A stretch of 64,000 nt of DNA from Chionoecetes opilio (lineage: Eukaryota; Arthropoda; Malacostraca; Decapoda; Majidae), in NCBI GenBank assembly GCA_016584305.1, contig JACEEZ010020869.1, forward strand, positions 95,001 to 159,000, read 5' to 3'. Of the stretch, positions 3,536 through 46,332 are shown one piece after another (within the stretch, counting starts at the first letter, position 1; each line of letters opens with the position of its first letter). The notes beneath the pieces are model-generated. The model had not been told where the DNA came from, did no database searches, and was given only the letters and a program-made list of their open reading frames with translations. Both the position numbers and the translations under genes were made by a program.

Positions 3536-3679
3536 GACAACTGGGGGGGGCGGGGGGGGTGCGCAGAACCTCCTGCAGTTAACTAACTACCTGGGGCATT
3601 GAATCACGTAACCAACCTCAGTGGGAGTTTCGCCCCTTCCCAGATCCCGCTTGAGTTATTTTTAATTTCGGTAAATTTC

Positions 3680-4275
3680 TTAGTGTGTGCCCATACTCTC
3701 CCACTTCCCCCAAACAAGTTTGGGGACCGGTGGAATACGGGGTTTTTGGGGGGCAACAAATTATGGTCGGAAAACACGTAAATTTAAGAGTTGTGTAGCG
3801 GGGCTAATCTAAAATTCCCTAGATTATAGGGAATTTCCTTAATCTAGAGGAAATTTGCATAACCCCCAAAATTAACCTAACGTAGCCAAATTAACCAACC
3901 TAGCTTGGGGTTGACACACCAATAACTAACCTAAGCAACTAACTAAAGCTAACCTAACCAAATCTAATCTAATCTGAACCAAATAACTTACCTAGCCTAA
4001 ACCAAATATAACCTAACCTAGCGAGGGTTTGGGAGGGGGTTTCTCGACACTTCGGTCATCATTCTTGTGAGGATCGTCAGGTTCATACGTCTCTGGACTC
4101 AGTAGAAATCAATACATTTTCCCTAGATCTAGGGAATTTTTTGAACACTCTAACTCAAAACTATGTGGTTGCATTGCATATTTTTTTTATCACAGCCAAA
4201 TATCCCGCATTCCCCCAGGTCCCAAGCTGCTTTGTGGGGGGAGGGGGAAGGATGCGGCAAACCACTAGAATAATA
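3680..4275. mobile_element. TIR element, CCCATACTCTCCC family, copy 1
   Basis: The left end carries GTGCCCATACTCTCCC and CCCCCAAACAAGTTTGGGGA. The right end at about 4200-4270 carries the complementary form (CCCAGGTCCCAAGC, GGGGGAGGGGGAAGGATG). The core has many TAACCTAACC motifs and CCTAGATCTAGGG palindromes. A better preserved copy sits at 16925-17583. Non-autonomous and non-coding. Confidence 0.55.
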
Positions 4276-4389
4276 CCTTAATTTCCGAGGGATGTTGTAG
4301 GTGTAAAAATTACTCTTTAATAAGAAACGAAACGTTCAGAAAACCACCACAGATTGTGTATGGTTTAAAGCTGCACATATAGCCGGTTT

Positions 4390-15107: not shown

Positions 15108-16924
15108 TGGTCAGTGTGAACCCCCCTTTACTGTCTTCTCTATAGGGACTCACAGCCAGCGGGATTATTATTTTTTGGGGGGGGGGCAGTCCTTTAAAAG
15201 ATACACCTAAGCTCGATTTCCCACCAGTCCCCTTAGCTTGTACGCTGGGGAAAAGAAAATGGTGATTGGCAGTATTGGTCGAAAATGCACAATTACCCTT
15301 GTTTACTACCTTATGAAGAACAAAGACCAAGCAGCAGACTCAATCACGAAAGCAACAGCAGCAGCTGCGTAGCATTAGCAGAAATGCTTCACATGAGTCT
15401 ACTCACGGAAAACTTTAATTAACGGTATTTATTGGGATAATACACTGTATTCAAGGGATAAGGCACAATACCCAGACCTGCTGCATCTAATGACTCCTCA
15501 CATTGAAAAACAAGACAAGAAGGAACAAAAGTCACTGCATTAGATTCTGTTCAAAGATTACCTTAAGGGTGGTTCACACTGGCCAAATACCGAGGAATAA
15601 GTGCTGGATTTACTTCCCGGGGAAGAAATCGCAGGAAGTATTCCCCCGAAAAACCTACACCGCTCGATTGGTCTTTTATCTGCTGAGTTACCAGGAACTT
15701 TCGCTCGCCAAATTCAAACAAAAGCAGAAGCCAGCACCACCGTCTTCCCCACTCACCCCAATTATTGGTATGATTTCGGTATTGAGCACTAAAAACTAAA
15801 AAAAATTAACTTACATCATCGTGTAGATATTTTCATCCTAACTTTGAATCCCAATTTCCCATGGCAATGGCGATACATATAATATCGAAAAATTTCCGTT
15901 TTAGCTACAGCTAGAAACGGTTGTTAGGTTAACTCAGATTAAGCAAGCAAGGATTAATCAGATTAATCAGCAAGGAGAGTAAATCTAGTACGGGTGTGAC
16001 GATTCATGGTTGAATGTACACTGTAAACACTGTCGATGGCGGGGATGTGGGAACAACAAACCTGGCAATTTGTTCCCTGGAACGAATTGTGTGTGTGAAC
16101 GTAATTGCGGCTTGCGGCCGCACAAACTGGTTTCCCTGGGCAAAAAAGTGCATCTATTTGGCCAGTGTGAACCAGCCTTAATTAACTGTTCACAAGTAAA
16201 AAGAAATGGAGCAGGGAAAGTACTAAAAAAAAAACCTGCAAATACAAATTTCTGCTGAAGCTAAGTCAGGTTAGATTCTCTCATGCACATTTATAACAAT
16301 TGAAGATAGAGTAGGTAATACACCGTATTTGCCGGCGCATAAGACACACCTCCGCATAAGACGCACCCGTTTTTTACATACGGTAAATATTTTGAGAAGA
16401 AAAAAATATTAGTGTTTTGAGTGTTGATTAGATAAGTAGGGTAGTCATAAGTTTGTTGGTATTATGATGTCTCGGTGTCTCGAAGCAGGTGAGCTGCTGA
16501 TGTGGCAACACTGATGTGGCCAGTCAGGGAAGGCAGCTATCAGCTGTTTTGGTAGGAGAGTGGGAGAGTGTTGACAGAGGTCGGGAGCTCCTGTTTGTAG
16601 TGACAGTTCAGCTGCTGGGTACATAGCTACTGGGGTATTGACGGATATTTGTTGCTGGAGTGTTCATTAATGGTATCTGATGCTGTTGTTGAAGGATATT
16701 GGATTGTTCTTCGTTTGGTGAGGTTTGGCTTTGTCTGGCAAGTTTGTTGACGTTGAGTCAGGGCCGGATTTAGGAGTGGGCAAAGTGGGCAGCTGCCCAG
16801 GGGCCTCCACAATCAGGGGGCCTCCACAAAAATGAGGAAAACTGCCAAACTGGGCCTGGGGCCTCCACATATTACAATTTTTGTTCTTATTTATTTATTT
16901 ACTGGTATTATTTCTGGTACTGTT

Positions 16925-17583
16925 CTAGTGTTTGCCCATACTCTCCCCTCTCCCCCAAAACAAGTTTGGGGACCTGGGCTAATGCGATATATTTGGCTGG
17001 GGTACAAAATATGCGTCGCAACCACATAGTTTTTGAGTTAGGGGTGTAGTATAAATGGCCAAAACTCCCTAGATCTAGGGAAAATAGATTGCAATTCTTC
17101 CAAGTCCAGAGACGTGTGAACCTGACGATCTTCACAAACAAAATGATAACCGGTGTGTCGAGCCTCCTCCCCCCCCCTCCCACTTAGGGTAAGGTAAAAT
17201 TTTGTTAGGATTGCCGGGGAGTCTAGAGGGACGGAGTCCCCCCCCGTTAGAAAGTTAGGTAAAATTAGGTTAGGTTAGATTATCGGGTGATTATTGCTAA
17301 GAGGTTAGGTTAAATTAACGGGGGTCGAGAGGGGCAGAGCCCCCCGCTAGGTTAGGTTAGATTACTGGGAGGTCAAGGGGAACGGAGCCCCCTCGCAAGG
17401 TTAGGTTAGGTTAAATTTTCCTAGATCTAGCAAAATTACTCTATATCTAGGGTATTTTGGCTCTTTTACATAACTCCAAAAATACGTGTTTCCGACGCTT
17501 TATTTGCTCCCCGAAAACCTCGCATTCCCACAGGTTCCCAAGCTTGTTTGGGGGAAGGGGAAGAGTATGGGCAAACACTAGAA
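16925..17583. mobile_element. TIR element, CCCATACTCTCCC family, copy 2
   Basis: The ends CTAGTGTTTGCCCATACTCT and AGAGTATGGGCAAACACTAG are inverted and extend about 48 bp. The core has four TTAGG doublet blocks separated by GAGGGGCAGAGCCCCC-like hairpins, and two CCTAGATCTAGG palindromes. Related to 3680-4275. It is nested in the hAT-like element. Confidence 0.75.
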
Positions 17584-17587
17584 ATTT

Positions 17588-17830
17588 AGAACATAAGAAC
17601 ATAAGAAAATAAGGAAGCTACAAGAGGCCGCGAGACCTACACAAGGTAGTTCCTGTTATGGTGTGGCTTTTGACAAAAGGTCTGCTTCAAAGTATACTAC
17701 TAAAAAACTAACTATCTCACTCATCACATTTTAGCACCTATTAAGGGTGATAACAGTCCAGGCACAAACCAACACGTGCCTCAATACGATACCTACGCAT
17801 GGACCAAAACCTCTCCTCTGGCAGCACCAA
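17588..17830 (-). mobile_element. CR1-like LINE 3' tail
   Basis: The complement of 17588-17665 reads AGGAACTACC, CTCGCGGCCTCTTGTAGCTTC and two TTATGTTC 8-mers. It matches the 3' end of the LINE at 45208-46310 (46240-46310). The rest, to about 17830, is presumably UTR. Repeated 8-mers at the 3' end are typical of CR1-type LINEs. Confidence 0.7.
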
Positions 17831-17835
17831 AGGCC

Positions 17836-18362
17836 TAGCGGGAGAAAATTAATTCCTCCCTCGTAGAAGAAAATTCATTCCTCCCTCGTAGGAGAAAATC
17901 AATTCCTCCCTCGTAGGAGAAAATCAATTCCTCCCTCGTAGAAGAAAATTAATTCCTCCCTCGTAGGAGAAAACTAATTCCTCCCTCGTAGGAGAAAATC
18001 AATTCCTCCCTTGTAGAAGAAAATCAATTCCTCCCTCGTAGGAGAAAATTAATTCCTCCCTCGTGGGAGAAAACTAATTCCTCCCTCGTAGGAGAAAATC
18101 AATTCCTCCCTCGTAGGAGAAAATCAATTCCTCCCTCGTAGGAGAAAATCAATTCCTCCCTCGTAGGAGAAAATCAATTCCTCCCTCGTAGGAAAAATCA
18201 AATTCCTCCCTCGTAGGAGAAAATCAATTCCTCCCTCGTAGGAGAAAATCAATTCCTCCCTCGTAGGAGAAGATCAATTCCTCCCTCGTGGGAGAAAATT
18301 AATTCCTCCCTCGTAGGAGAAAACTAATTCCTCCCTCGTAGGAGAAAACTAATTTCTCCCAT
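17836..18362. repeat. 25-bp minisatellite, about 21 copies
   Basis: The unit is GAGAAAATCAATTCC followed by TCCCTCGTAG, with AAAATT and AAAACT variants. It lies about 175 bp beyond the stop codon of the CEP43-like gene. The unit length is not a multiple of three and there are no unique spacers. Confidence 0.95.
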
Positions 18363-18535
18363 GTATATCTTAATTTTGATTAGCGTGATTACAGATAAAT
18401 TCTAAGCAACAATACATCCTATGTTATGGAATGGCACTGGCATGTTGGTGAAGGAGTGATTCCCCTGTCAATAAAGGAAGGACTTATCTTGCTTCAGATA
18501 CAGAGGAATAGAGTTGACAGGGAGAGTAAGTAAAG

Positions 18536-19642
18536 CTATAGATCCTCTTGGTACCCTGGCACGCTGCTGGCCTGCGAGAGAGACTGGTCCTTGGTGATGT
18601 CCGAGACCCCAGAGGCAGATGAGCCTAACAGATCATCAACAGAGGTGTCTCCAAGATCTTCTTCAATATCCTCCTCCTCCTCCTCCTCCTCCTCCTCCTC
18701 CTCCTCCTCCTCCTCCTCCTCCTCCTCCTCCTCCTCCTCCTCCTCCTCCTCCTCCTCCTCCTCTTCCTCAGGCCCATCTTTCTCACTCATGGAAGAAAAG
18801 TCATCCTCGTATTGTTTGTCTTCACCACTGATGGAAGTGTCACTGTCAGGCTTGCTCTCATCTGGTGAAGGAGGATTTGACAGTCTGGGAGAGGACGCGT
18901 TTCCACTGACACTGATCCCAGCAGTCTTTCCTGAGCCTACAATTACTTCAGTCTCCTTGTTCCCATTCTCCACAGTCAAGGGAGGGAGGACGGGGGGGGG
19001 GTGCATATCCTTGTCCTCCTCCTGGCTCTCTTCAACACCCTTCTTGCCCCACAGATGGTTCTCAGCTTTTGGGAGATGGTCTGGTGTGTGTCTGAGTGTG
19101 TCTTGCAGCTGCTTGTGTGGCTGCTGCATATGCTGTTCCCTGCTGCTACTGTTGCTGTCACTTGAGATGCTGCTGGCCTCTCCGTTTTGCTCCCGTGCAG
19201 ATAAAGGTTGGGTCTTTCTCTCTCTCAGAAGCTCAATCAAAAGAGGGGTTTTCTGACCCTTTTTATCAGCAGTCGCCTTTTCTTCCTTCCCTCTGGCCAG
19301 ACCTAGAGAAGTGGAGAGCGCCTCAGGGCCGAGGAATGACCACAGGACCGGGTGGCCAGACTCTGGGGCAAAGACAGCCAGGGAGAAGTCCAGACCATCT
19401 GTAGAAAGAACTGTAGAAAAGTCCTGCACCAGACTGGCCGCCACCGGCCCCTCCTCCGTGCCCAGGACTCGCTGTGTGGGCTGGCTGACTAGTGGAATAT
19501 TCTTATCTCTAAATTCTTCTTCCAGTGCAAGAAAAACACTTGCTCGAAGTTGTGCCTGTATTTTGCCCAGAACCCCATTAGTCTGCAGTGTCTTAGTGAC
19601 CAGATCCTTGAGGCTGGCGTCCTCCTCATCCTCGATGGACAT
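18536..19642 (-). CDS. CEP43: CEP43/FGFR1OP-like centrosomal protein, intact intronless copy
   Basis: 368 residues from the ATG at 19642 (MSIEDEEDAS) to a TAG stop; no in-frame ATG lies further upstream in this ORF. CEP43 (FOP) is a centriole/centrosome protein that helps anchor microtubules and build cilia. The N-terminal dimerisation region is clear: TLQTNGVLGKIQAQLRASVF (18-37) then LALEEE, followed by a LisH-like segment (GPVAASLVQDF...LDFSLAVFAPESG, about 65-97). A long Ser/Pro/Glu-rich middle follows, then 33 consecutive Glu (292-324). The C-terminus keeps the family's acidic motif (YEDDFSS before the Glu run, DIEEDL and SVDDLL after it). Length and order match the vertebrate family (about 380-400 residues), which has many introns; none is seen here. 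It sits inside a hAT-like element within a copia LTR, so it is a transposed copy. No poly(A) remnant is seen downstream. Family call recalled, not searched. Confidence 0.88.
   Translation of the reverse strand: MSIEDEEDASLKDLVTKTLQTNGVLGKIQAQLRASVFLALEEEFRDKNIPLVSQPTQRVLGTEEGPVAASLVQDFSTVLSTDGLDFSLAVFAPESGHPVLWSFLGPEALSTSLGLARGKEEKATADKKGQKTPLLIELLRERKTQPLSAREQNGEASSISSDSNSSSREQHMQQPHKQLQDTLRHTPDHLPKAENHLWGKKGVEESQEEDKDMHPPPVLPPLTVENGNKETEVIVGSGKTAGISVSGNASSPRLSNPPSPDESKPDSDTSISGEDKQYEDDFSSMSEKDGPEEEEEEEEEEEEEEEEEEEEEEEEEEEEEEEEEDIEEDLGDTSVDDLLGSSASGVSDITKDQSLSQASSVPGYQEDL
18671..18769. repeat. CTC/GAG triplet tract coding poly-Glu
   Basis: 99 bp, all CTC except one TTC codon near the right end. 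On the minus strand it is 33 in-frame GAG/GAA codons within the CEP43-like gene. Confidence 0.98.
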
Positions 19643-19720
19643 CACGGACACTCAAACACAACACACGCAAAGAAAGAAAGAAAAACGAAATAAAAGAGCG
19701 GCCTCGGCTGCCTCAAAACA

Positions 19721-19770
19721 ACTGAACCGACAGTTTTGAAGTATTTACCATACTTCTTTGTATATTTATA
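19721..19770 (-). promoter_or_regulatory. Possible promoter of the CEP43-like gene
   Basis: On the minus strand a TATAAATATA (19761-19770) lies about 45 bases before a TCAGT (19721-19725), the arthropod initiator pentamer, and the ATG is about 80 bases further on. The TATA-initiator spacing is longer than the usual 30 or so, so this is only a candidate. Confidence 0.2.
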
Positions 19771-20596
19771 TAATAAATTTCTTCAAATCAAGAGGCCTTA
19801 ATTTTTAATCAAATTAATAATTTATCTTATATCCAACTGCCTAGCTAGTGTTGCTTGATTGCCTTGATGCTTTAATCGGAAGCCAACAGCCTCTTTTTAG
19901 GTAGGCATGGCATCGACTGTAGCTAGGCTATAGCCAGTGGTTTAGGTTAAAGTTTCATATAATTCATATATACCAGAAAAACACTCATTAAAAATAAATT
20001 AACCTTGAAAGTAACTCCCGTCAGTAAATTTCATATCAACCAAATGTCTAGGCAGTGAGCTCAAATTTCAGAAAATATGGGGCTTAGGCTACTTCTATAC
20101 TTCATGCTTTCAACAAGGGGTGACCCGACTCATAGTCTCGCAACATCAATGTGTTACTTCTCAATCTGAATACTTTATTGAGCTGTGTAAAGCTGTGTTC
20201 CACTTAAAAAAAAAAATCTTTACCCAATTAGGTCATAGAATACCCCAATTTTGTCACAATATACTAGAGCTAATATACTTTCTCAATTCAGCTTTGTTTA
20301 TTGCTTCAAAATGCTCCTAAAAAGGCTAAAATTTCCAAAAAATCCCCGGACCCCCCAGCTGCGCAGTCTTGCTTCGCTCAAAACCCCATACTTTGTAAAA
20401 TTTTGTAATGAAAGGGGGCCTCCACACAGAGGCTGCCCAGGGGCCTCCACTGGTCTAAATCCGGCCCTGCATTGAGTACTGTCAATTGGAGAGTGTGGAG
20501 GCCACAACGAATCAAGGTAACGTGTTGATATCGTTACATGTATATCTGAATCTACAATTGTGTATTTGTTGATGGTGATTGCCAGTAATTTATCAA

Positions 20597-20652: not shown

Positions 20653-21280
20653 ATGGCGTCTGTGCTTAAACCCCCCCCCCCCCCCCGTACTGGAAGATAT
20701 AGAAAATTATGAACAATGGAAGGAGGATGTTTTGATGTGGAAAGAAATAACAGATTTAAGTAAGAATAAGCAAGGACTGGCTGTACATCTCACGTTGAAA
20801 GGCCAAGCTAGGGAAGTGGCAAATCAAGTTTCAACTGCAGACAAAAAGCAAGATAATGCACTAGATATTCTCTTAGATAAACTGGATGAAGCTTTTCTTA
20901 AAGAACCAAAGAGAAGAAAATTTATGGCATATCAAGATTTCGAGGAATGTGTCAGGAAGGAAGGGATGCAAATTTGTGATTTTATGAGAGAATTTGATAC
21001 AAAGTATTTTAAAATGAAAGAGAAAGGAATGGTATTACCTGATGAAGTGCTTGCATTTAGACTTGTTAAGAATTGTAGACTATCTGAAGTGCAGAGGGAC
21101 CAAGTGATGGCTTCAACAAAACCATTGTCATTTAAGGAAGTAAGAGCAACACTGAAAAGAATGTTTGAATCAAGTGCTGGAATTAGTGACTTGGATCATG
21201 GGGTACAGGTGAAGGAGGAACCATTGTATGTAACTAAGGCCCCTGACACGCAGGAGAAGAGAGGAGGATCAAGACTATAA
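20653..21280 (+). pseudogene. Copia Gag capsid region
   Basis: The Gag capsid part of the copia element. The natural start is probably the ATG at 20653 (MASVLK), just after the primer binding site. A run of 16 C at 20671-20686 then shifts the frame relative to the long ORF. That ORF reads VLEDIENYEQWKEDVLMW, GLAVHLTLKGQAREVANQV, LLDKLDEAF and FREF-type capsid text (ICDFMREFDTKYFKM), typical of the copia Gag (UBN2-type) fold. Gag forms the virus-like particle that packages element RNA. A TAA at 21278 ends the frame just before the zinc knuckle. Confidence 0.75.
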
Positions 21281-21289
21281 GATAATTAT

Positions 21290-21511
21290 ATGAAGAGTCA
21301 GGAGGAGGACGTCAGGTGGACCACAAATTATGGAAACCAAAGAGATTATGGCAGAAATTGGAATAGAGGTAGAAGGTACAGTAGGTATGGCAGATACCCA
21401 AGGAGAAACTGGAGAAGTGCGGGATATGACAGTGGCTGTTTCGAATGTGGTTCTAAGGTTCATTGGGCAAGGAATTGTGATAAGAGGAAAGAGGAGGACA
21501 AAGTGATATGA
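21290..21511 (+). pseudogene. Copia Gag nucleocapsid with zinc knuckle
   Basis: Same frame as the Gag capsid region but beyond its stop. It is Arg/Tyr-rich (RNWNRGRRYSRYGRYPRRNW), followed by CFECGSKVHWARNC, a CX2CX4HX4C knuckle that binds RNA. It ends at a TGA soon after. In an intact element this would be the C-terminal part of Gag. Confidence 0.8.
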
Positions 21512-21570
21512 CTAGATAATTTTTTTGAGGACCACAGTAGCACAATGAAGTTAAGAAAAGAGACAATAGG

Positions 21571-22161
21571 ATGTGCTGTATTGGCACGGGCTGTAATGTA
21601 AATGTATGTGGTGAAAAGTGGTTACAGGAATATGAGGAAATGTTAGATAAAAATGAAAGAGGTCTTGTTGAAGAATACAGAACCAGTAAATATTTCAGAT
21701 TTGGTGATGGACAATCTTTAAAAGCACACAAAAGGGTGAAAATACCTGGATATATAAATAAGGAGAAAATAGAAATTGAAACTGAGGTCATTATGTCAGA
21801 CATACCTCTATTGCTCAGTAAAACCTTTATGAAGGAAATGAGCATGGTGATACATTTAGGGGATGACCGTATCCATTGGAAAAGAGGTGAGATCAAAGGT
21901 TTGAAAATAACTGGTACTGGGCATTATGCTATTCCCATAAACAAGTGCCAGAATTTTGAAGGTGAAAGAAATTTCATGAAATATGTCCTGCACACTCATG
22001 GAGAGGAGACCTCCAGGAAGAAAGCGTTAAAATTGCACAAACAATTTGCTCATCCCTCAAAAGAAAAGTTGCTCAAATTAATTAATGTGGAGCTGGAGGA
22101 AGAAATTAGGAAACTTGAAGAGACATGCGAAACATGTATCAAGTTTCAGAAAACCCTGTGA
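21571..22161 (+). pseudogene. Copia protease and pre-integrase region
   Basis: It begins at the protease active-site region. The visible reading is CCIGTGCNVNVCGEKWL; the catalytic Asp expected just before the T-G is absent, apparently through a small deletion with a frame change. The body of an aspartic protease fold follows (FGDGQSLKAHKRVKIPG, IPLLLSKTFMKEM). The C-terminal part carries a zinc-binding pre-integrase motif (LHKQFAHPSKEKL, then CETC). The frame shifts near 22150 before the integrase. Confidence 0.75.
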
Positions 22162-23018
22162 GACTGATAGTCAGTGTGCCAATGGCTAATTATTTTAATG
22201 AGATGATCAGCATGGACCTTAAGGTTTGGAAGGAGAAATACTTCCTGGTTATGGTTGATATGGCCACAAGATATTGCAATGCCTGTGTAATCACAAGTAA
22301 AGCAGCAGAGGTTATCATAGATGCAGTGATGAGACATTGGGTGGCATTGTTTGGGGCTCCCAAGAAAATTTTAACTGACAATGGAGGTGAATTTAATGAC
22401 AATGAAATCAGGAGTATGTGCGAAAATTTTAACATCAGAGTAATGTGCACTGCAGCGGAAAGCCCTTGGAGTAATGGGGTCTGTGAAAGACTCAATGCAG
22501 TGTTGAAGAACAATGTGCTGAAGATTAAAGAGGAAAACAAATGTAACATTGACACTGCACTGGCTTGGGCTATGGCAGCCAGGAATGCACTACATAACAA
22601 CCACGGGTTTTCCCCAAATCAGTTGGTTTTCAGTTTTAACACAAATCTGCCCAATATAGGAGAGGGTGGCCCTTCAGCATTAGAGAATATTACACCATCA
22701 CAGACTGTAGCCAACAATTTGATAGCTCTGCGGAAGTCAAGAGAAGAATTTATCAAAGCAGATGCTAATGAGAGAATTAGAAGAACCTTATCTCATAACA
22801 TTAGAAAAACTGAGGATGAGAATATTGAAACTGGCAGTTATGTGTATTACAAGCGTGATGGTGAGGACAGATGGCGGGGTCCGGCACGAGTTATTGGGAA
22901 GGATGGTAAGGTTAACGTATTGAGACATGGCGGACAAATGGTGCTAGCTCACATATGCAGAGTAAAAGGAATGGTGGACCAAAGCAACAGTGTTGACAGT
23001 GACATGAAGGAATACTAG
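22125..23018 (+). pseudogene. Copia integrase
   Basis: Integrase core with its acidic triad visible: Asp in ISMDLKVW, Asp in LTDNGGEF and Glu in NGVCERLN. A C-terminal region follows with a GSYVYYKRDG and RWRGPARVIG chromatin/DNA-binding type domain. It inserts the cDNA and makes the 5-bp target duplication seen around the element. The frame ends at a TAG at 23016, although the RT-upstream linker continues in the same frame, so this is a simple nonsense change. Confidence 0.85.
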
Positions 23019-23099
23019 AAGTGTAAGGAGACAAATGAAACAGGAAGTCAGCAAAGTCAAGAGTATGAGAGTGAAGATGATGACGACAATACCAATGGA

Positions 23100-24325
23100 G
23101 TGGATAATGGAAAGGAAGTGACTACAAGAGTTGATGAGCCAGAAAGAAAAACAACTGCACCTAAGGTAGGAAAAAGATATGAAGTTACGCTGGCAGATTC
23201 CAATGAGAATATTAACGTCAAAATTTTGAGTAGAGCTGGGAAGGTGACAGGAAAGTACAAGGAATGCTTTAATTTTCGCAATGAACAGAATGGGGAAGAA
23301 TCGTGGATGGATTTTGGAAGAGATGTGATAGATATGAGAGAGATGCAGGAAGATGAAGAGATTATGATCACCATATCAGATGAGAAGACTATGGATGCCA
23401 AAAGGAAAGAAATTGAAAATTGGGAAGCAAATGAAGTCTTCGAGGATGTGGAATGGGAAAGCCAAGTCACTATATCTACAAGATGGGTGGTAACAGAAAA
23501 GCAGAACAATGAGGGCGAGACAGTAAAAGCTAGATTAGTAGCAAGAGGATTCGAAGAAGAACTTGAGGATGGTATAAACACGGAGTCGCCAACTTGTAGT
23601 AAGGAAGTTCTAAGACTGGCATTAAGTACTGTATTATGTTAATGAAGAAATGAACATGTCATACAATTGACATAAAGGCAGCGTACAGTCAAGTTCATCA
23701 GATCAATCGGGAAGTGTTCTTGCAGCCACCACCAGAGTTTTTCTGTGGCAAGGTTTGGAAATTGAAGAAAACTGTATATGGTCTTAATGATGCTGCTAGA
23801 GCCTGGTATGAGACCGTAAAAGACGAGCTGGTGAGACTGGGTATGAGACCATCGAAATATGATCCGGCTATGTTTGTGTTCAACGAAGGTGACATCTTAG
23901 AGGGAATAGTGTGCATCCATGTCGATGATTTCTGTTGGGGAGGCACAAGGAAACTTGAAGAAAGTGTGATATCAAAATTGCAGAAGGCATTTATGATTGG
24001 TGACACTGATTCTGGGCAGTTCAAGCATGTAGGTATTAATGTAAAGCAAGAAAATGATGGAATAAGCTTAGATCAGGAGAGCTACATAAAATATCTGCAT
24101 CAAGTGGAGATAAGTCAGAAGAAGAGCCAAATGAAGGAAATGCCATGGAATGAGGAGGAAGTACATTTGTACATGTCGCTTGTAGGTCAGCTAAACTGGA
24201 TAGGGACACAGACAAGACCTGATATCTCATTTGAAGTGTGTTCATTGAGTACGAGGTTTGGAAAATGCACAATGGGAGATCTTATGGAGACTAACAAGGT
24301 GATCAAAAGAGTGAAAACAGACTAA
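23100..24325 (+). pseudogene. Copia reverse transcriptase
   Basis: The RT is split over two frames at about 23640. The upstream part has IENWEANEVFEDV and TRWVVTEK...VKARLVARGF, the classic copia RT entry. The downstream part starts before 23714 with TIDIKAAYSQVHQ (first catalytic Asp), then WKLKKTVYGLNDAARAWY and HVDDF (HVDD in place of the usual YVDD). SLVGQLNWIGTQTRPDISF follows. A TAA at 24323 interrupts it before RNase H. Confidence 0.85.
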
Positions 24326-24349
24326 ATCAGCCTATTCTTCCCAGTGGTA

Positions 24350-24827
24350 ACTGACGATGTATATCTGGAGTGTTACAGTGATGCAAAATTTGCTAATCTA
24401 AGTGATTGTGGTTCTCAGGGTGGATTTATTATATTTCTAGCTGATGGAAATAGTAAGAGATGTCCTATCATGTGGAAATCAAGGAAAATCAGAAGTCGTT
24501 AAGTCAACTTTAGCTGCTGAAACACTGGCATTATTGGAAGTGGCTGAGAGTGCCTATTACATAGGAAAAATCTTGGAAGACATTGGTATAGGCAAAAGTG
24601 TACCTATAAAATGTTTTGTAGATAACAAGTCACTTGTTGATGCTTTAAGGTCCATGAAGAAAGTGGAGGATAAATACCTTAGAATTAATATGGCTTGTCT
24701 GAAAGAAATGTTAGAAAAGCAAGATATTTCGTCAGTGGAGTGGATAGCTACCAATAAGCAAATGGCAAATTGCTTGACCAAAAAAGGACCATCACTTCTG
24801 ACACTGCTTGAAGCCATTACGAAGTAA
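24350..24827 (+). pseudogene. Copia RNase H
   Basis: Residues of the copia RNase H are present: YSDAKFANL (first Asp), a WKSRK block, STLAAETLALLE (Glu), FVDNKSLVDAL (Asp) and the terminal WIATNKQMANCLTKKG. A frame break separates the first Asp from the rest near 24440. A TAA at 24825 is directly followed by the polypurine tract and the 3' LTR. Confidence 0.8.
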
Positions 24828-25236
24828 GAAGGGAGAAAAAAAATAGAGGGAATTTTGTTGATTAGATAAGTAGGGTAGTCATAAGTTTGTTGGTATTATG
24901 ATGTCTCGGTGTCTCGAAGCAGGTGAGCTGCTGACGTGGCAACACTGATGTGGCCAGTCAGGGAAGGCGGCTATCAGCTGTTTTAGTGGGAGTGTTGACA
25001 GAGGTCGGGAGCTCCTGTTTGTAGTGACAGTTCAGCTGCTGGGTACATAGCTACTGGGGTATTGACGGATATTTGTTGCTGGAGTATTCATTAATGGTAT
25101 CTGATGCTGTTGTTGAAGGATATTGGGTTGTTCTTCGTTTGGTGAGGTTTGACTTTGTCCTGGCAAGTTTGTTGACTTTGAGTGCTGTCAATTGGAGAGT
25201 GTGGAGGCCACAACGAATCAAGGTAATGTGTTGATA

Positions 25237-26056
25237 CAGGGATGTCAATTTTCTGCGGATTCGCGGATTTCCGAGTATTTTATTGCCAGCTGGGTCATTT
25301 CTGTGAATCGTGTAGATTCGGGTTAAAAACATTTTTTGGAGGTGGTGTACATAGTTGCCTAGCCCACAGCTGAACCTGACCCTGGCCACTGATCTAGCAC
25401 AGACCATAACACATTTTTTGGCTGCCTAGCGGGAAGTTAATACTAGGCTGCCGATATCTCCTGACTCCACTGCTATAAGTTTGCTCAGGAGGCAGTATGT
25501 TGGGGGTGGAATACAGCAGCCCACAGCCAGTATGTTGGGGGTGGATTACAGCAGCCACAGCCAGGTGAGATAGCTCTGGTGATCCAGGGGTCTGGTATCG
25601 ATTGGCACACTGCCCTCACTGTGTCAAGTTTGCAGGCTCCAGGCCTAGAGAGTTCAATGCAGGGATGCCACAGCAGGAGGCAAGCCAGATTGGCCAGAGG
25701 GTATATACTCAATATAGTATGGCCAGAGATATATACATATACACAAATTGTGGACACAAAAACAGACAAAATTGAGACCAGAAATGATTATATTCAGATT
25801 AAGTTAGTACATACAAGAGGACCTCTACGTATCGCCATGATGGTCCCTTTTTTCAATTTTCTCAAGTTGAACAATGATTGATCAATTTAATACCAAATTA
25901 CTTCATCAGAACCTCTTCCGCATTCAAACAACCACCCTCCGGGACAGGTTCCCTCGCTCACGGTTTCGGTCAGCCTCGCTGGCGCTCGGATGAGTTGTCG
26001 CCCTATTTCTTTATGTCAGAGGTTTTTTTCTTCAAGATGACATCTGGTTTGATTCA
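25237..26056. mobile_element. Insertion within the copia 3' LTR
   Basis: The LTR text stops at TTGATA (25236) and resumes at TACATGTATATC (26057), compared with the 5' LTR. The left edge CAGGGATGTCAATTTTCTGC looks like a hAT-type end. No clear partner end or duplication is visible, so the insertion carried a small deletion or has rearranged. Inside is a roughly 34-bp unit in two copies (CAGTATGTTGGGGGTGGA) at 25494-25560. No ORF of note. Confidence 0.6.
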
Positions 26057-26122
26057 TACATGTATATCTGAATCTACAATTGTGTATTTGTTGATGGTGA
26101 TTGCCAATAATTTATCATTAAG

Positions 26123-45207: not shown

Positions 45208-46310
45208 GTTAGGGCTCATGGAATAGATGGGAAGGTTCTTCATTGGATCAGAGCTTGGCTAAGTAATAGGCAACAAAGGGTTACAATTAATGGTTCTAAA
45301 TCTGAATGGGGACTGGTGACAAGTGGAGTTCCACAAGGGTCTGTTTTGGGTCCATTACTATTTTTGATTTACATCAACGACTTGGATAGTGGGATTAGCA
45401 GTGATATCAGCAAGTTTGCTGATGATACTAAGTTAGGTAGGATTATTGGATCACAGTCTGATGTAAACATATTGCAGGGAAACTTATATAAACTTAACGA
45501 GTGGGCAGTCAGATGGCAGATGGAATTTAATATTGATAAATGCAGCGTTATGAATGTTGGTAGAAAAAACCCTGGTAATAGATACACCATAAGCAATGTA
45601 TTACTGAAAAGATCAGAAGGTGAAAAAGATCTTGGAGTGAGGGTGAGCCCAGACCTCCGACCTAGGAAACAATGTATTGAGGTCAGAAATAGAGCTAATA
45701 GAGTATTAGGATTCATTACCAGAAGTGTTAAAAGTAGAAGTGCGGAAGTTATTCTAAAGCTTTATCTGGCTCTAGTCAGGCCTCACCTAGACTATGCGGT
45801 TCAGTTTTGGTCTCCATATTACAGGATGGATATAGCCTTGTTAGAAACAGTGCAGAGAAGGATGACCAAAATGATACAAGGGATGCGTAACTTTAGTTAT
45901 GAGAGGAGATTGAAGTTATTAAAATTACACTCACTCGAGAGATGCAGAGTAAGGGGCGGTCTGATAGAAGTTTTTAAGTGGATAAAGGGATTTAATAAAG
46001 GAGAGGTAGGAAAAGTTCTTACGGCTTTTAACCAGGGTAGAACAAGAAGTAACGGATTCAAGCTGGAAAAGCGTAGATTTAGAAAGGAAATAGGGAAAAA
46101 CTGGTTCACAAATAGGGTGGTGAATGAATGGAATGGTCTCAGTAGACAGGTAGTTAGTGCGGAGTCATTAGGGAGCTTTAAAGAGGAGCTGGATAGGTTC
46201 ATGGATGGGGATGAAAGGTGGATGTAGGTAATGTTAGGTGACAGGAACTACCACGTGTAGGCCTCGCGGCCTCTTGTAGCTTCCTTATTTTCTTATGTTC
46301 TTATGTTCTT
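45208..46310 (+). mobile_element. CR1-like LINE 3' half
   Basis: RT to 3' end. The open frame 45316-46227 is uninterrupted. The tail at 46245-46310 reads AGGAACTACC, CTCGCGGCCTCTTGTAGCTTC and repeated TTCTTATG 8-mers, the hallmark of CR1-type 3' ends. The 5' end is truncated at about 45208. A tail copy sits at 17588-17665. Confidence 0.85.
45316..46227 (+). pseudogene. CR1-like reverse transcriptase, open C-terminal half
   Basis: 303 codons without a stop. SGVPQGSVLGPLLFLIYIND and SKFADDTKL (FADD catalytic box) lie near the start. WQMEFNIDKCSVMNVG, VRVSPDLRPRKQCIEV, LALVRPHLDYAVQFWSPYY, LETVQRRMTKMIQGM and NGLSRQVVSAESLGSFK follow. The first catalytic Asp region is only partly present upstream (WIRAWLSNRQQRVTING in the same frame from about 45245). 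Being this intact, it is one of the youngest insertions here, but the missing 5' part makes it non-autonomous. Confidence 0.85.
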
Positions 46311-46332
46311 AAAACATATGGTGGAAGTTGTT

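Follow-up and report, generated by a model that had tools for sequence, protein, structure and literature searches.

The 64,000-nucleotide stretch of Chionoecetes opilio DNA analyzed here (assembly GCA_016584305.1, contig JACEEZ010020869.1, positions 95,001 to 159,000 of the forward strand; "the window") carries a complete open reading frame (ORF) for a homolog of the centrosomal protein CEP43 (FOP, FGFR1OP). The frame lies inside a hAT-like transposon, which itself lies within a long terminal repeat (LTR) of a copia-type element. We propose, with a probability of roughly 0.9, that a CEP43 transcript ending in the tail of a long interspersed nuclear element (LINE) was retroposed into a hAT-like copy, and that hAT transposition then moved the composite. 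The insert has lost its introns and ends in a LINE tail. Target duplications flank both the insert and its carrier, a second copy sits between other flanks, and the arms of the gene-bearing copies have derived states in common.

A CEP43 retrocopy in a hAT-like element

A 3,711-bp segment (16759–20469) interrupts the 5′ LTR of the copia-type element. The two halves of this LTR (16422–16758 and 20470–20595, plus strand) were aligned to the 3′ LTR, which is also in two parts (24856–25236 and 26049–26117, plus strand). At the position corresponding to the hAT target the 3′ LTR is intact and reads CTTTGAGT, the unfilled site. The LTRs differ by 13 substitutions over 443 compared bp (Kimura two-parameter distance, 0.030). 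They begin and end with TG...CA, and the 5-bp flanks of the whole element, TTGAG and TTAAG, are identical at 4 of 5 positions. The internal region (20735–24827, plus strand) is in pieces; its ORFs exceed the Pfam cut-off for the integrase domain rve and fall below it for Retrotran_gag_2, gag_pre-integrs, and RVT_2, in an order that fits copia. The LTR pair marks a site that was filled later, and the composite in the window arrived after the copia element. An earlier note on this DNA, made from its letters alone, had pointed to the 3′ LTR as showing the uninterrupted target. This holds at the hAT target; further on, the 3′ LTR is split by an insert of its own (about 811 bp, 25237–26047, starting CAGGGATGTCA), whose ends and flanks are hAT-like in appearance.

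Terminal inverted repeats (TIRs) of hAT elements start with the consensus CAGGG. The left 15-bp end of the segment, CAGGGCCGGATTTAG (16759–16773, plus strand), has its exact reverse complement at the right end (20455–20469, minus strand), and each occurs once in the window. The abutting 8-mers, CGTTGAGT on the left (16751–16758) and CATTGAGT on the right (20470–20477), match at 7 of 8 positions, as expected from the earlier note, which had reported perfect inverted ends and a near-perfect 8-bp duplication. We searched the segment against the window's own genome (1.94 Gb, 20,818 contigs), which gave 175 matches, with 40 of 6382 candidates scored. At no fewer than 35 loci among the matches listed, the left and right arms of the segment adjoin with no gene between them, overlapping by 5 bp at 34 loci and by 4 bp at one. 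These loci are gene-free elements. The carrier of the CEP43 insert is therefore a non-autonomous hAT-like element of about 1.55 kb, made up of a left arm (16759–17588, plus strand) and a right arm (19743–20469, plus strand). The long ORFs of the window element itself are CEP43 and an antisense serine-rich frame.

Five gene-free copies (L004 to L008) were examined. Two of them, L007 and L008, have target duplications identical at 8 of 8 positions (AGCAGTAG and TTTGCCAC, respectively); at L004 to L006 one or both element ends were not located by end patterns. The ends of the window element recur in L007, in L008, and, with one mismatch, in the second gene-bearing copy described below, with a CAGGG-type start and an 8-bp duplication. 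Since elements with identical ends recur in the genome, those in the window are not due to chance. Part of the left arm (16919–17581) has inverted repeats (CTAGTGTTTGCCCATACTC...) like those of a smaller element, is matched in gene-free copies too, and has related sequence at about 3665–4277; the retrocopy landing site is just beside its right end.

Because the arms adjoin with a 5-bp overlap at gene-free loci, the insert can be placed at 17589–19742 (minus strand, about 2.15 kb), between two copies of ATTTA (17584–17588 and 19743–19747) that form its own target duplication. Read on the minus strand, it consists of a 5′ untranslated region (UTR; 19643–19742), the 368-residue CEP43 frame (18536–19642), the 3′ UTR adjoining the stop codon (18366–18535), a 25-bp minisatellite of 20.8 units (17841–18365), a low-copy 3′ UTR stretch (17657–17840), and a 3′ tail in common with a CR1/L2-like LINE (17589–17656, ending in CTTATGTTCTTATGTTC). 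In the right arm, within 19743–19800 on the minus strand and some tens of bases upstream of the retrocopy 5′ end, is TATATAAATA, a candidate promoter. A 219-residue antisense ORF (18597–19256, plus strand) overlaps the CEP43 frame; its serine run comes from the glutamate repeat, and it is probably a chance frame.

The identity of the frame comes from the ORF list, Pfam, a structure match, and a protein search. In Pfam the window protein scores below the cut-off for both FOP_dimer (24.1 bits against 29.4) and LisH_2 (22.5 bits against 27). It matches the solved FOP domain 2d68 with an E value of 4.7e-5. The protein search, which ranked candidates by words in common with the query and scored the top 8000, found 78 proteins, and the best full-length matches are decapod CEP43 proteins. 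An unnamed protein heads them at 71%; among the named ones, Scylla (65%) comes first, followed by Eriocheir (57%) and Portunus (56%). By sequence similarity, then, the 368-codon frame is a CEP43/FOP homolog.

The 3′ end of the insert identifies a likely route of copying. It matches 46241–46313 of the window at 94.5% over 73 bp and has an 8-nucleotide repeat end. In the window this matching tail follows an ORF (45520–46227), the two forming a LINE fragment (45520–46313, plus strand). The ORF has no Pfam match; from its C-terminal sequence, we take it to be LINE-like and tentatively of the CR1/L2 clade. Tails of this kind were aligned across eight sources. No poly(A) is present at the 3′ end of the insert, where the LINE tail stands instead, and this rules out a poly(A)-dependent, L1-type retrocopy.

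Source gene and spread of the composite

The genome also holds a CEP43 locus with introns, as the earlier note had suggested looking for. A protein search of the genome with CEP43 (37 matches, 111 candidates scored, many of the matches being to the glutamate run) led to C15073, where homology to the insert delimits eight exons and seven GT-AG introns. All seven introns are absent from the insert, which is accordingly a spliced copy; this rules out that the hAT element picked up genomic DNA directly. The intact, intronless 368-codon frame described by the earlier note is borne out. So is its argument that the gene is not in its ancestral place: the LTR pair shows a site filled later, the intron-bearing locus is elsewhere, and the case of a genome with only the window locus does not arise.

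The 3′ region of C15073 has the same order as the insert, with the same 25-bp minisatellite followed by the low-copy stretch and the LINE tail. Queried as 17657–17845, the low-copy stretch has six occurrences in the genome: the window, C11557, C15073, C20443, C18068, and C1782. Three of these have only the 3′ part and end in the LINE tail. C20443 begins at the start of exon 8, and C18068 and C1782 begin within the minisatellite. They are probably 5′-truncated copies, and the transcript would then have been retroposed from its LINE tail more than once. The minisatellite itself varies, from about 5 units in C11557 to 20.8 in the window, its motif occurring 26 times in C15073, 52 times in C18068, and 60 times in C1782.

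A second composite is present at C11557:158768-162005. It matches the window element from end to end, except that its minisatellite and glutamate run are shorter, and its CEP43 frame is open (344 residues) and above the Pfam cut-offs for FOP_dimer (34.8 bits) and LisH_2 (30.8 bits). Its flanks differ from those in the window, and it has its own duplication, CGTCTTGG/CGTCTTGT, identical at 7 of 8 positions. This is the further copy with the gene between the same ends for which the earlier note had proposed a search. Three more gene-bearing places, C14651A, C14651B, and C17522, lie in large, mutually related duplicated stretches and were counted as one further locus; the left hAT arm was not found at any of them. 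C14651A and C17522 have two changes of the window frame, R54Q and a net 9-bp insertion (19397–19417, minus strand; 8 + 1 bp, frame kept) that puts STVLSTDG in place of LQCLG in the FOP dimerization/LisH region. Both changes are absent from C11557 and C15073. In a nucleotide tree, C11557 falls outside the window copy and the C14651/C17522 copies (support 95).

Compared with gene-free copies L005 to L008, the window and C11557 arms have nine derived sites in common, three on the left and six on the right, and five of the six right-arm sites are also derived in C14651A and C17522. States common to the gene-bearing arms argue against the insert having been pasted separately into several hAT copies. 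It seems, from these sites, that one composite founded the gene-bearing copies. Spread of the insert among hAT copies by gene conversion, instead of transposition, would account for the differences between the C11557 and window inserts being clustered, with unchanged runs of more than 300 bp. Set against the common derived states, and with the gene-bearing arms differing from each other mostly by states that the other compared copies do not have, we consider it very improbable.

Assembly error was also weighed. The C14651 and C17522 stretches look error-rich, with 23 (C14651A) and 24 right-arm indel events compared with 1–7 in seven other copies. The window and C11557 do not (4 and 1 events, respectively), and regular ends, duplications, and splice junctions were observed, which leaves an artefactual origin of the composites scarcely credible.

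The LINE-tailed retroposition and subsequent hAT transposition would have proceeded as follows. A CEP43 transcript reads into a LINE 3′ end located in the gene's own 3′ region, and a CR1/L2-like LINE, presumably through its reverse transcriptase (RT), copies the mRNA from that tail. The spliced product, with most of the 5′ UTR included, would then insert into one hAT-like copy of about 1.55 kb, producing the 5-bp duplication. From there hAT machinery, presumably a hAT transposase, would have moved the composite as one unit. Its destinations would be the copia 5′ LTR in the window, C11557, and a third locus, lacking the left arm, in the C14651/C17522 stretches. The earlier note had left a choice between capture of the gene by a transposon and a retrocopy that landed inside one and moved or stayed. 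The introns of C15073 decide against capture and for the retrocopy, and the flanks and duplication of C11557 indicate that it moved.

Several observations weigh against this history. The 8-bp duplications of the window and of C11557 are both imperfect (7 of 8). The protein search, with its 8000 scored candidates, returned nothing nearer than 71%, and so gave no sign that the species expresses the copy. The synonymous divergence (dS) between the insert and C15073, 0.16, is high given the short time implied by the hAT arms, and in C15073 the extreme end of the LINE tail is altered.

The last two points suggest that the insert may derive directly from another copy of CEP43. A second gene, of which locus C17299 would be the remnant or which is missing from the assembly, has about even odds of having given rise to the retrocopy. 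C17299 is a copy, at about 91%, of the 5′ part of C15073, comprising the promoter region, exon 1 (with a TAG at codon 12), and part of intron 1. It is nearer the insert than C15073 is (97.3% over 182 bp compared with 95.2% over 186 bp), although few exon 1 differences lie behind that comparison. In the 3′ UTR, C20443 is likewise nearer the insert (90%) than C15073 (82%). The landing also seems recent, judged by the nine derived sites common to the window and C11557 arms over 1,543 bp compared, yet dS to C15073 is as high as given above. Exons 2–8 were not seen within the 22 kb examined at C17299, which may therefore be only a partial duplication. In a protein tree, C15073 and the hAT-borne copies form a group (98/93) that excludes the other decapods included, which gives no sign of transfer from a sampled species.

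Youth and selection

The earlier note had read the open frame as a sign of youth or of selection. Youth can suffice to explain the open frames, and the comparisons make no firm case for selection since the landing. Between the window and C11557, the coding sequences differ by 2.5 synonymous and 7.5 non-synonymous changes, giving a ratio of non-synonymous to synonymous divergence (dN/dS) of 0.88 on 10 changes. Both classes are low alike, which is not the mark of selection on the protein.

That the hAT-borne copies are functional retrogenes, under purifying selection since they landed, is in our judgment doubtful. The comparison of C11557 with C15073 speaks for it, with dS 0.160, dN 0.032, and a ratio of 0.198 (0.216 without the glutamate run). 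Non-synonymous changes make up 24.5 of 58, and a binomial test against a ratio of 0.5 (24 taken) gives P = 7e-4. This low ratio may stem from the life of the source gene before retroposition. The protein tree also favors selection, with a C15073 branch of 0.055 and a shorter stem for the hAT-borne clade, 0.014, whose support is 93/86, short of the program's star.

The arms provide a second yardstick. They differ between the window and C11557 at 44 sites, of which 13 seem to have changed in the window copy and 28 in C11557, with 3 unassigned; another alignment gives 45/1543. With the latter count, the coding sequence differs less (11/1035; Fisher P = 0.0014), which speaks for selection. When changes were simulated at the arm rate, both frames stayed open in 0.1% of runs, a further point for selection; at the observed coding rate they did so in 7.9%, which speaks against it. 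The simulation assumed indel lengths and disallowed compensating indels, of which the window copy does have a pair. The C14651 and C17522 copies (ratios of 0.80 to C11557) were tried as decayed controls for selection and dropped, as they are error-rich and mutual duplicates; their stops and frameshifts were excluded from the evidence.

The two complete frames also differ in their domains. The window copy is below both FOP domain cut-offs and C11557 is above them, which counts against a function common to the hAT-borne copies and makes C11557 the better candidate if one copy works. Both intron-bearing loci look damaged. In C15073 a 1-bp deletion in exon 7, genuine or an assembly error, ends the frame at codon 315, and C17299 has its early stop. 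Because of this, and because C11557 is open with its FOP domains above cut-off, we weighed whether a hAT-borne copy is the animal's working CEP43, a centrosome gene inherited as mobile cargo; we regard this as improbable.

Precedents and meaning

In fungi, a hAT of Pseudocercospora and its relatives is reported to have amplified retrocopies of histone H3 (PMC6710886). There too a housekeeping gene has an intronless copy amplified in a hAT, and the intron-bearing gene remains. The fungal copies number in the hundreds, and RIP has inactivated every one of them (PMC6710886). The CEP43 case differs in having few copies, two complete open frames, an animal host, and a LINE tail that points to its origin.

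In animals, a survey of Pack-TIRs, which likewise have host gene sequence between TIRs, assigns 208 of 370 to hAT (PMC8277862). Only four (1.4%) are multicopy in that account, with an example carrying 291 bp of 5′ UTR; an ARF6 retrogene lies almost wholly inside MER20, for which the authors give recurrent retroposition as an alternative (PMC8277862). The window element and C11557 are Pack-TIRs in the sense of a host gene between TIRs, in more than one copy, with distinct duplications. In contrast to those cases, what they carry is a spliced copy of about 2.15 kb with the whole coding frame, at independent places.

Retroelement sequence in a 3′ UTR has been linked to retrocopying before. An Alu in the 3′ UTR was proposed as a helper of processed pseudogenes that makes the mRNA a better template (PMC5199112). 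In CEP43 too, part of a retroelement lies in the 3′ UTR of the gene, whereas the helper here is the LINE's own 3′ tail, and the copy starts there without poly(A). CR1-tailed short interspersed elements (SINEs) of birds are described as having a common 3′ tail that ends in an 8-nucleotide repeat and by which they are held to attract the LINE RT (PMC5729268). The CEP43 insert likewise has its 3′ tail in common with a LINE and an 8-nucleotide repeat end. Its passenger differs, being a protein-coding transcript, and its host is a crustacean. A paper by Suh from 2015 is said, by its title, to concern CR1 and the scarcity of retrogenes.

Literature searched for CEP43/FGFR1OP together with retrogene gave nothing on CEP43 in crustaceans, and in the literature covered, mostly below full-text level, no animal hAT bearing an intact retrogene in several copies was named. 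Fungal hAT-borne retrocopies and animal Pack-TIRs are precedents, but elements that carry a complete open frame in more than one copy seem rare. What seems new, within that literature, is the combination of a LINE-tailed mRNA copy, a complete open frame, and a hAT carrier at more than one place in a crustacean.

In this history two mobile systems would have acted in turn on one animal gene. The LINE tail would have made the mRNA a template, and the hAT would have made the copy movable cargo with its whole frame. Since multicopy Pack-TIRs number only four (1.4%) in the animal survey, the CEP43 composite is a clear case for study. It may help to show how complete genes spread with cut-and-paste elements and whether a retrogene can survive on such an element.

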